Shown one piece after another: positions 25,542 through 28,090 of a DNA stretch of 64,000 bases. The notes beneath the pieces are model-generated. The model saw nothing but the letters and a program-made list of their open reading frames with translations. It made no database searches and was not told where the DNA came from. The number at the start of each line of letters is the position of its first letter. The first letter of the stretch is position 1. A program made the translations under genes and the position numbers. The DNA is from Arthrobacter sp. CJ23 (GTDB lineage: Bacteria > Actinomycetota > Actinomycetes > Actinomycetales > Micrococcaceae): NCBI RefSeq assembly GCF_024741795.1, contig NZ_CP102950.1, positions 3,658,001 through 3,722,000 on the forward strand. The letters run 5' to 3'.

Positions 25542-26690
25542 CTAGGCGGCCGTAGCCAGCCGGCGCTTCCGGGCAGAGGCGGCGAGCTGGTCCAGCACGG
25601 ACACCGTGACGTCCCATTCCATGCAGGCATCGGTGACGCTCTGGCCGTAGACGAGCTCGGCGGAACCGGAGAGCTGTTCCGAGACGTCCAAGTTCTGGGC
25701 GCCGCCCACGAGGAAGCTTTCGAGCATGACGCCTGCGATCGGGGAGGACTCCCCGGCCTCAAGCTGCGCACCGATTTCGAGGGCCACCTCGGCCTGTCGG
25801 TGGTGGCTCTTGCCGCTGTTGGCATGGCTGGCGTCCACGATCAGGCGCGGGTTCAGGCCCTTGGCCGAGAGGCGCCCGGAGGCCGCTGCGACGTCGTCGG
25901 CAGAGTAGTTGGGTCCCTTGCGTCCGCCGCGCAGGATGACGTGGGTGTCCGGGTTTCCGGCGGTGGCCACCAGGGCCGCACGGCCATCGCCGTCGATCCC
26001 GAGGAAGGCCTGCTGCGCTGCAGCGGCACCGCAGGCGTCGATCGCGACCTGTAGGTCGCCGTCGGTCCCGTTCTTGAAGCCGATCGGCATGGACAGCCCG
26101 GACGCGAGCTGGCGATGGATCTGGCTTTCGGTGGTGCGGGCACCGATGGCGCCCCAGGAGACGAGGTCGGCCATGTACTGGGGGCTGATCGGCTCGAGGA
26201 ATTCGGTGGCGGTGGGCAGGCCCAGGGCAGTCACCTGGTGCAGGAAGCCGCGGGCGGCGCGCAGGCCGGCGGCGATGTCGTGGCTGCCGTCCAGGTGGGG
26301 ATCGTTGATGAGGCCCTTCCAGCCGACGGTGGTGCGCGGTTTTTCGAAGTACGCCCGCATGACCACCAGCAGGTCTTCCTTGTGCTTTTCGGCCTGGCTG
26401 ACCAGGCGGCGGGCGTATTCGAGCCCCGCCTTGGGATCGTGGATGGAGCACGGTCCCACGATCACCAGGAGGCGGTCATCCACGCCGTCCATGATGGCGC
26501 GGACTTCGTCGCGGCCACGTTCGACGACGGCTGCGGTCTTCTCGTTCAGCGGCAGCTCGGCGATCACTTCCTGCGGGGCGGGAAGGGGCTCGAAGCGGCC
26601 GACGCGCAGGTTCGACGTCGACGGCTGGCTGGCGCCGCCGCTCAGGGCGCTGCCTTCGGTTTCGGTGGTTTCTGCGGCGATGCTGGTCAT
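25542..26690 (-). CDS. 3-deoxy-7-phosphoheptulonate synthase (class I DAHP synthase)
   Basis: A 382-residue enzyme for the first step of aromatic amino acid synthesis: PEP plus erythrose 4-phosphate to DAHP. Class I features are GPCSIHDPKAGLEYARRL near residue 78, KPRTTVGWKGLINDPHLDGS near 113, GARTTESQIHR near 180 and DASHANSGKSHHRQ near 305, with metal-binding residues in place. It is similar to E. coli AroF/G/H. The leader in front encodes an aromatic-rich peptide and stem-loops, so expression is probably controlled by attenuation in addition to feedback inhibition. Confidence 0.95.
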   Translation of the reverse strand: MTSIAAETTETEGSALSGGASQPSTSNLRVGRFEPLPAPQEVIAELPLNEKTAAVVERGRDEVRAIMDGVDDRLLVIVGPCSIHDPKAGLEYARRLVSQAEKHKEDLLVVMRAYFEKPRTTVGWKGLINDPHLDGSHDIAAGLRAARGFLHQVTALGLPTATEFLEPISPQYMADLVSWGAIGARTTESQIHRQLASGLSMPIGFKNGTDGDLQVAIDACGAAAAQQAFLGIDGDGRAALVATAGNPDTHVILRGGRKGPNYSADDVAAASGRLSAKGLNPRLIVDASHANSGKSHHRQAEVALEIGAQLEAGESSPIAGVMLESFLVGGAQNLDVSEQLSGSAELVYGQSVTDACMEWDVTVSVLDQLAASARKRRLATAA

Positions 26691-26731
26691 GATGGGTCCT
26701 GTTCCGGATGTGGAGCGGGTCCCAGTTCAGA

Positions 26732-26833
26732 ACCCGCCGGATATGGCGAAGGGCAGAGAATGATCTCTGCCCTGTTGGCTCTGAAGGTGTGTTGGATGCG
26801 TGTCAGTGCGACGCGGGCCCCTCCAGAGCCAAC
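26732..26833 (-). promoter_or_regulatory. Transcription attenuator of the DAHP synthase gene
   Basis: Minus-strand segment 1 (26833-26820, GTTGGCTCTGGAGG), inside the leader ORF just after the aromatic codons, is complementary to segment 2 (26787-26774, CCTTCAGAGCCAAC) over 14 positions with one G-U pair. Directly after comes a 10-bp hairpin AGGGCAGAGA/TCTCTGCCCT (26773-26750). A ribosome stalled at Trp/Tyr/Phe codons would cover segment 1 and change the fold. No U-tract follows the second hairpin, so the exact termination step is uncertain. Confidence 0.6.
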
Positions 26834-26862
26834 GAAAAATACGCATACCAACGGTTAGTCAT
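26803..26862 (-). CDS. Aromatic leader peptide (attenuation) before DAHP synthase
   Basis: A 19-residue ORF, MTNRWYAYFSLALEGPASH, with Trp-Tyr-Ala-Tyr-Phe in a row: four aromatic codons in five. Its ATG lies exactly six bases after a -10 box TATGGT (26874-26869), so the message starts at the AUG. It ends 112 bp before the synthase gene. A ribosome-mediated attenuator upstream of aroF (aroR) is described in Corynebacterium glutamicum (from memory). This looks like its functional counterpart, with mixed aromatic codons so that several amino acids could be sensed. Confidence 0.78.
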   Translation of the reverse strand: MTNRWYAYFSLALEGPASH

Positions 26863-27076
26863 GGACACACCATAGCCCGGGCGTCCCGGGCCGGCCAAAT
26901 TCCGTCCACGATGTGGCGCCCTGGCGTTTCTGGGGCACCCGCCCCGGCTCCAGGAGCAACGGCCCGCGCGCCAAACCGCCGTCATGCACGCCGGCCCCCG
27001 AGTCATGATGAGAAAACGCTTCCCCGTACCCGCTAGGCTTTCTGTGGCAGCAAGTGTTTGGCAGAGGAAGGACTCC

Positions 27077-28090
27077 ATGGCGGGCAGACGCGAAACCCGG
27101 CGCATCGGCATCGCCGACGTCGCCCTCAAGGCCGGAGTTTCCCATGCCACGGTGTCGCGGGTCATGAACGGGAACACCACCGTTGATCCCGTCATCGCGG
27201 CCCGGGTGCGGGCCGCCGCCACCGAGCTGAAATACAAGCCGAACCCCATGGGCCGCAGCCTGGCGCTGGGAAAATCGGACACGATCGGCATCGTGGTCCC
27301 GGATCTCTCCAACCCCACCTTCCAGGCCATCCTCCGCGGCCTCAGTGTCGCGGCCGCACGGGACGGCTACCGCGTGCTGATCGCCGATTCCTCCGAGGTC
27401 TCCAGCGAGGAAGCCATCCTGGCCGGTGAGGCCAGGCGCCGCTGCGACGGCGTGGTGCTCTGCGCCCCGCGCATGAGCGACGCAGAGCTGGAGGAGCTGG
27501 CCCCGTCCCTGTATCCGCTGGTCCTCATCAACCGCACCACCACCTCGGTTCCCACCCCCAGCCTGGTGGTGGACTACGGCCAGGGCATCCAGGAACTCGG
27601 CGCCCATCTGGTGGGCCTCGGCCACCGCCGGCTGCTCTACCTGACCGGCCCCAAGGCCAGTGCCTCGAATGTGCAGCGGCTCGCGGGCCTGAGGCAGTTC
27701 ACTGCCGACTTCCCCGAGGTGGAACTGCAGATCCTGCCTGGCGGGAACACCTTCGACGCCGGCTTTGAGGCAACGGACGCCGTGCAGGCCAGCGGCGCCA
27801 CGGGCATCCTGGTCTTCAACGACCTCGCCGCCATGGGGCTCCTCAACGGGCTCAGTGCGCGCGGCGTGCGCGTCCCCGAGGACATGTCCCTCACCGGCTT
27901 CGATGACATGCCGTTCGCGCGGTACACCATGCCTCCCCTCACCACGGCGGCGGTCCCTATTGCCAGCCTGGGCGACCTCGCCTGGCGGCGCATGCGGGAC
28001 CAGATCATGAACAACGACGCCGAGTCCCCCACCGACTACTTCGCGCCGCAGATGGAAATCCGGGGCAGCACAGGACCGGTCAGGGCGTAG
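27077..28090 (+). CDS. LacI family transcriptional regulator
   Basis: A 337-residue regulator. The N-terminal HTH (residues 8-30: [20 protein letters not shown]) is followed by the hinge [15 protein letters not shown] and [16 protein letters not shown]. The periplasmic-binding-like effector domain fills 60-337, with [13 protein letters not shown] and [20 protein letters not shown] near the end. I chose ATG 27077, preceded by GAGGAAGGA. An upstream ATG at 26984 adds 31 unsupported residues. No sugar gene is next to it, so the effector is unknown. Its last 11 bases overlap the end of the convergent FadR-type gene. Confidence 0.9.

Follow-up and report, generated by a model that had tools for sequence, protein, structure and literature searches.

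A conserved aromatic leader ORF with alternative downstream RNA pairings as a candidate attenuator of DAHP synthase in Arthrobacter and other actinobacteria

The synthesis of tryptophan, tyrosine and phenylalanine begins with DAHP synthase. In a 64,000-nt stretch of the Arthrobacter sp. CJ23 genome (the window, the whole DNA analysed here), the gene for this enzyme is preceded on the minus strand by a 19-codon ORF, MTNRWYAYFSLALEGPASH followed by TGA (26862-26803). From the stop codon of this leader ORF to the start of the synthase gene (26690) there are 112 nt. NCBIfam and Pfam both assign the downstream product to type I DAHP synthases, as had been proposed from the sequence. The earlier note had also described the Trp-Tyr-Ala-Tyr-Phe run ahead of this gene and a TATGGT box exactly six bases before the ATG, in a leaderless layout; both lie where it placed them and both are conserved. 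The genes and expression signals are as follows.

25542..26690, minus strand: type I DAHP synthase (aroFGH type), 382 residues, the putatively regulated gene (NCBIfam, Pfam)
26694..26701, minus strand: CAGGACCC, which holds the Shine-Dalgarno AGGA of the DAHP synthase gene (sequence; cross-locus duplex tests with S')
26803..26862, minus strand: putative leaderless leader ORF MTNRWYAYFSLALEGPASH, ATG at 26862-26860 and TGA at 26805-26803 (sequence, conservation, short-ORF count)
26869..26874, minus strand: -10 element TATGGT, six bases 5' of the leader ATG (sequence; conserved TANNNT spacing)
26894..26899, minus strand: possible -35 element TTTGGC, 19 nt 5' of the -10 element (weak)

About 120-215 bases separate the leader promoter from the start of a divergent gene further upstream (26984-28090, plus strand), whose product looks by eye like a LacI-type regulator. 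The host genome has a single copy of the leader motif and one type I DAHP synthase gene of the window's type; it also has one type II DAHP synthase elsewhere (L228), and no aromatic short ORF was found in the upstream stretch searched at that locus.

An E. coli-type promoter scan of 26600-27000 found no promoter, and the promoter assignment is based on the actinobacterial TANNNT spacing and its conservation. In 171 of 185 leaders the last base of a TANNNT box lies 6 or 7 nt 5' of the start codon, and AGGAG, GGAGG or GAGGA occurs within 16 nt upstream of the leader start in 2 of the 185; start codons were picked by rule, in the newer loci partly by aromatic content, and several of the 14 leaders lacking the spacing are mis-picks. 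By eye, TTTGC or TTTGG stands at the matching distance from the -10 element in many Arthrobacter-type loci. Short ORFs are common in the window (859 with ATG or GTG starts and 10-35 codons), 3 of which have TANNNT 6-7 nt upstream; the leader ORF is the only one that combines this spacing with at least four aromatic residues in five codons. We infer from the spacing that the 5' end of the transcript probably coincides with the leader AUG to within a base, and with such a start the leader would be translated as a leaderless mRNA.

A scan of contigs for DAHP synthase loci gave at least 80, mostly from Arthrobacter, Paenarthrobacter, Pseudarthrobacter and Microbacterium. Among the matches listed, the leader was found by motif in 79 of 80 loci, and the remaining one, from Brachybacterium, has a leader detected by covariance model. 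The N-terminal part of the peptide varies in these 80 listed loci (MTNRW, MTRW, MITRW, MTNW), as do codons 10-11 (SL, ES, AL, GP, AV, PL), and W-Y-x-Y-F is kept, except that one leader has N at the second Tyr position and one has F at the first. Leader and pairing, for which alignment across Arthrobacter had been suggested beforehand as a check, are conserved in these relatives, with covarying helices (see below). In two loci (L032, L099) one inserted base shifts the frame after RWYAYF, and a different tail ends at approximately the same place. The locus L057, from a record titled Sporosarcina beigongshangi, is a typical Arthrobacter-like locus (79% protein identity); that assembly is probably mislabelled or mixed.

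Covariance models extended the search. Model R1, built from 57 sequences, matches 65 of 396 genomes of the order (E<=0.1), with DAHP synthase downstream in 31 of the 34 loci examined, and model R2, built from 53, matches 82 of 394 genomes of the class (E<=0.05). The weak matches L143, L144 and L151 were dropped as having no DAHP synthase downstream, and L150 and L152 as partial matches. Of the 66 loci L162-L227, 54 have both leader and structure and were retained; a DAHP synthase relative lies downstream in 40 of these. The other 12 (L213, L216, L218-L227) were weak matches without DAHP synthase or leader. Class-wide, the leaders read RWYWRF, RWYWF, RWFTY, RRWRYF, RRYPYF, GYWRFIE and others. 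All three of W, Y and F occur together in 153 of 185 leaders. The mixed codon make-up proposed earlier is real and conserved; Trp is not universal, being absent from 16 of 172 DAHP-type leaders. The same arrangement of leader and predicted folding RNA recurs in many actinobacteria, across families and orders.

The leaders differ sharply from the genes in codon choice. In 79 leaders, Tyr is encoded by UAU 156 times and by UAC 0 times, and Phe by UUU 75 times and UUC 6 times; the corresponding counts in 77 downstream genes are 1 UAU to 340 UAC and 12 UUU to 526 UUC. A second set of 50 loci behaves in the same way (leaders 67 UAU to 1 UAC and 39 UUU to 10 UUC; genes 1 UAU to 170 UAC and 0 UUU to 177 UUC). 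Helix 1:1', described next, accounts for just the first dozen bases of this choice. In our reading, UAU and UUU codons that are slowly decoded or unstructured may sharpen the sensor.

The leader and the RNA behind it contain the following segments and hairpins.

26841..26852, minus strand: segment 1, codons Arg-Trp-Tyr-Ala, partner of 1' (cross-locus duplex tests)
26820..26833, minus strand: segment 2, partner of 2' over 14 bp (covariation and cross-locus duplex tests)
26791..26801, minus strand: segment 1', directly after the leader stop codon (cross-locus duplex tests, both sets)
26774..26787, minus strand: segment 2', alternative partner of 2 and S (covariation and cross-locus tests)
26750..26773, minus strand: hairpin P3 (AGGGCAGAG/CUCUGCCCU), which abuts 2' and has no U-run (both sides change in 5 of 9 pairs)
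26735..26748, minus strand: P4, CGCC/GGCG, which cannot coexist with the base of P5 (sequence; by eye, compensatory changes at some loci, for example L078)
26727..26738, minus strand: segment S (GGCGGGUUCUGA), partner of 2' and S' and in the window also of CAGGACCC at the Shine-Dalgarno (SD) stretch (cross-locus duplex tests of 2':S)
26715..26723, minus strand: segment S' (GGGACCCGC), 3' arm of hairpin P5 (cross-locus duplex tests of S:S')

The 14-bp complement between 26833-26820 and 26787-26774 noticed in the first reading is there in full, with one G-U pair, and is conserved. The 10-bp hairpin of that reading is present at 26773-26750 (P3), but it is neither a canonical terminator, having no U-run, nor a competitor of the 14-bp pairing, since it folds at any ribosome position. 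The conserved competitor of 2:2' is S, further downstream than P3. Helix 1:1', S as a second partner of 2', the S:S' hairpin and the complementarity of the S/S' region to the SD stretch go beyond the earlier note. RNAalifold offers a possible further 4-bp pairing, of the leader UGGU with GCCR after P3. One locus has an insertion between P3 and S (L073:1297-1456), consisting of an additional hairpin whose flank is partly repeated. We judged a full H-type pseudoknot of 1:1' with 2:2' improbable, since hardly any sequence separates 1' from 2'.

Covariation was measured in alignment A2, from which 13 of 70 distinct elements were omitted as redundant (L073 for its insertion; L032 is noted for its shifted frame). 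Helices P2 (2:2'), P3 and P5 (S:S') have 99.1% of cells paired in A2, compared with 97.0% in shuffled and 36-65% in slid versions, and 8 pairs change on both sides versus 3.3 in shuffles. For helices that share strands we used an alignment-free duplex test, which sets the energy of a locus's own two segments against the energies obtained when segments are exchanged among loci; the procedure corrects for relatedness only in part. Set 1 had 76 elements thinned to 40, four of its loci having no usable S', and set 2 had 54 thinned to 40, mostly from other families or orders; the two sets share three genomic places, with L162, L173 and L183 of set 2 identical to L087, L128 and L138 of set 1. Gene starts were assigned by us, in the S':SD and S:S' test of set 2 partly by SD-likeness (52 of 54 loci).

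In set 1 the z values were -4.8 for 1:1', -9.4 for 2:2', -5.0 for 2':S and -7.9 for S:S' (37 loci), and in set 2 they were -6.0, -9.1, -3.6 and -6.8, respectively. S':SD gave -3.2 in set 1 (29 loci; 8 of 5000 permutations as good) and -3.6 in set 2 (33 loci; 1 of 5000). Under the strictest thinning S':SD fades to -0.3 (6 loci) and, in another run, -1.8 (9 loci), as does 2':S in set 1 (-0.6, 11 loci). Most control pairs were near or above zero, the exceptions being 1:S (-2.5) in set 1 and 2:SD (-2.1) and 2':S' (-2.4) in set 2; at 70% thinning of set 2 the control 2:SD (-2.8) beats S':SD (-2.3). S:SD, which appears in the window's own fold, has a cross-locus z of about 0, and a local hairpin inside segment 2 (P2L) was discarded as an element at -0.15. 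Individual loci illustrate the S':SD complementarity: it extends over about 10 bp in L137, and L135 and L136 have GGCUCC/GGAGCC in place of GGGUCC/GGACCC. Helices 1:1', 2:2' and S:S' are well supported, 2':S is supported, and the S':SD pairing is suggestive.

As in known attenuators, a short ORF with clustered codons for the products of the pathway stands ahead of the gene, and in silico the position of the ribosome chooses between mutually exclusive structures. We moved a 28-nt ribosome along the leader of 39 loci and refolded the RNA at equilibrium, counting the position of the leading edge in nt past the first base of the Arg codon. With the edge at 13-19 (ribosome at Trp5 or Tyr6), 2:2' outweighed 2':S in all 39 loci; this number was 38 at edge 22, 23 at 25, 9 at 28, 5 at 31 and 0 at 34-46. 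When the transcripts were truncated after P5, S:S' dropped with the flip from about 8.1-8.2 to 0.8-2.8 expected pairs. These counts put the flip at the end of the aromatic run; at the Phe9 stall position the switch has largely flipped already, so a stall there would signal more weakly. The folds also favour 2:2' when the ribosome is absent (29 of 39 full transcripts, the window's included), and 2:2' is ahead again in 37 of 39 loci at edge 58. An untranslated leader would therefore be ON unless folding order matters, and the repressed state would need a ribosome over segment 2 or a role for folding order. The predicted paired fraction of the SD stretch was 0.59-0.63 at every ribosome position in the 39 loci.

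The probable function of this region, in our view, is ribosome-mediated attenuation in response to how much charged tRNA is available for Trp, Tyr and Phe (probability about 0.7). Transcription would begin on the leader AUG or no more than one base from it. A ribosome waiting on Trp-Tyr-x-Tyr(-Phe) would cover segment 1, and the free segment 2 would pair with 2'; S would then be left to S' in hairpin P5, and the DAHP synthase message would be expressed. A ribosome beyond the aromatic codons would cover segment 2, and 2' would pair with S around P3 and P4, which would free S' to pair with the SD stretch and lower translation. In the window sequence S itself is also complementary to the SD stretch. 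The response would be one to starvation. Computation supports the leader, its start, the codon choice, helices 1:1', 2:2', 2':S and S:S' and their competition; the site of transcription initiation and the starvation response are predictions. Output through the SD site, the weakest step of the scheme, is suggested solely by the complementarity of S' to the SD stretch.

The nearest known system is the leaderless AroR of C. glutamicum. Neshat et al. (2014) reportedly described an AroR leader/attenuator upstream of aroF (cg1129) in this species, and its attenuators are said to be leaderless. AroR and the window are alike in having a leader upstream of a type I DAHP synthase, aromatic codons and a leaderless start (in the window suggested by the TANNNT spacing), whereas AroR has Phe-Tyr-Phe and the window Trp-Tyr-Ala-Tyr-Phe. 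A DAHP synthase of this type is present in 9 of 41 genomes of a genus that we take, from its RFYF leaders, to be Corynebacterium, and 7 of the 9 have an RFYF leader. In these seven loci helices 1:1' (z -3.4) and 2:2' (z -3.0) are at the same places as in the window, with 2:2' abutting a hairpin in both. The AroR-type hairpin carries a U-run and stands after 2' in the place of P3, which in the window has none, and no S/S' chain like that of the window was seen in AroR-type loci. Model R2 does not pick up AroR-type leaders, so the kinship rests on architecture and not on a model score. AroR is a closer relation than the earlier note supposed. A Corynebacterium aroF leader peptide is mentioned in an excerpt of PMC4046766, and an excerpt of PMC11802643 states that AroR expression is enhanced under Phe limitation, with Tyr having no effect.

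This kinship bears on a second reading, namely termination of transcription, intrinsic or with Rho, at P3 or at the 2':S structure with P3 and P4 whenever 2:2' fails to form; we regard it as a credible though rather doubtful alternative. The U-run hairpin stands in P3's place in 7 of 7 AroR-type loci, 4-8 T (mean 7.1) fall in the 10 nt after P3 in the 13 loci of the f24 family, and the regulation of AroR is transcriptional according to the same excerpt (PMC11802643). Against this, the number of T in these 10 nt averages 3.8 for the window and its kin (76 loci, range 0-6), P3 and 2:2' have no bases in common, and the AroR-type stem forms at every ribosome position. The T count is 3.4 in family f27 (19 loci) and 4.6 in f11 (14 loci). 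A terminator scan of 26600-27000 found none, and with no U-run we rejected P3 as a canonical terminator in the window. In the seven RFYF loci (L153-L159) the U-run hairpin abuts 2:2' without overlap; that hairpin folds wherever the ribosome stands, so textbook arm capture does not account for how 2:2' would prevent termination there.

The tRNA-reading attenuator fits better than three further explanations. The nascent peptide RWYAYF..ALEGP might stall the ribosome and sense a free amino acid or metabolite, and in Arthrobacter-type loci the peptide is indeed conserved beyond the aromatic run. We ascribe this conserved tail to RNA pairing, since codons 10-11 change while 2' covaries and the pairing is retained; with peptides diverging widely in other clades, arrest was rejected as very improbable. 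A metabolite riboswitch or protein-binding RNA with an incidental ORF would account for the very high nucleotide conservation, wobble positions included, and is equally hard to credit: insertions and deletions ahead of the Arg codon come in threes and so keep the frame (MTNRW, MTRW, MITRW), W/Y/F are kept as their neighbours change, the codons run opposite to gene usage, and the TANNNT spacing is kept. Rfam 15 (T-boxes, riboswitches, leaders) gave no match in 26000-27500 of the window (E<=5) or in 10 relatives at gathering score. A functionless chance ORF, for which the abundance of short ORFs might speak, is contradicted by conservation and covariation across families and orders and may be taken as refuted.

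Other leaders of actinobacteria share parts of the proposed design. The LEU element upstream of leuA in Actinobacteria has Leu codons, and its codon run pairs with the SD box (excerpt of PMC1262725); like the window it combines a leader peptide with pseudoknot-capable alternative pairings that extend to the SD site, in the window by prediction, and its proposed output is at the level of translation. According to the same excerpt, phenylalanine and tyrosine operons had no conserved RNA structures ahead of them in the genomes of 2005. In contrast to the LEU element, pairing of the codons with the SD stretch has no cross-locus signal in the window's family (1:SD z -1.2), and we rejected it. The poly-cysteine leaderless short ORFs of mycobacteria, reportedly attenuators (Canestrari et al., 2020), resemble the window's leader as leaderless regulatory short ORFs in actinobacteria and differ in their codons. 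An excerpt of PMC13236596 describes them as acting by translation attenuation. Streptomyces lividans has leaderless leader peptides before amino acid genes (trpL1, trpL2, leuL, ilvL and others), some without a typical terminator, in these respects like the window; they concern other amino acids, and no DAHP synthase leader is among the eight listed in the excerpt (PMC8079986). NCBIfam has no model for the leader. A literature search found no description of it and no occurrence of WYAYF; most subscription papers lay outside this search, and absence from print is unproven.

The element is also found before other genes. In 14 of the 54 class loci the downstream gene is not a type I DAHP synthase of the window's kind. 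The next ORF was inspected in 11 of these, and a family search on 5 gave three that resemble a degenerate DAHP-synthase/chorismate mutase fusion and two that resemble chorismate mutase. At L184, L186, L188, L190, L193, L197, L207, L209, L210, L214 and L217 the element, with a Phe/Tyr leader, stands before a putative chorismate mutase or degenerate fusion gene. The non-DAHP leaders are of the Phe/Tyr type: of the 13 peptides picked, 12 have no Trp and the remaining one was picked with an upstream start.

A wider reading, which we offer tentatively, is that one ancient actinobacterial RNA family controls entry into aromatic synthesis: a leaderless Trp/Tyr/Phe sensor in which five alternating helices pass the ribosome's position on the leader codons on to the SD site of DAHP synthase or, in one family, a Phe/Tyr leader before a chorismate mutase gene; in the clades with a U-run, 2:2' might act on a terminator that it merely abuts. 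If true, this last arrangement would be a mode of antitermination other than arm capture. It raises the question of how one leader design came to lead to a terminator in some clades and apparently to Shine-Dalgarno sequestration in others. The finding would add an RNA family absent from Rfam 15 and may offer a handle for aromatic amino acid production strains. A pooled three-amino-acid sensor with slow-looking Tyr and Phe codons, common to distant actinobacteria, would explain how the joint step of the three pathways is tuned.
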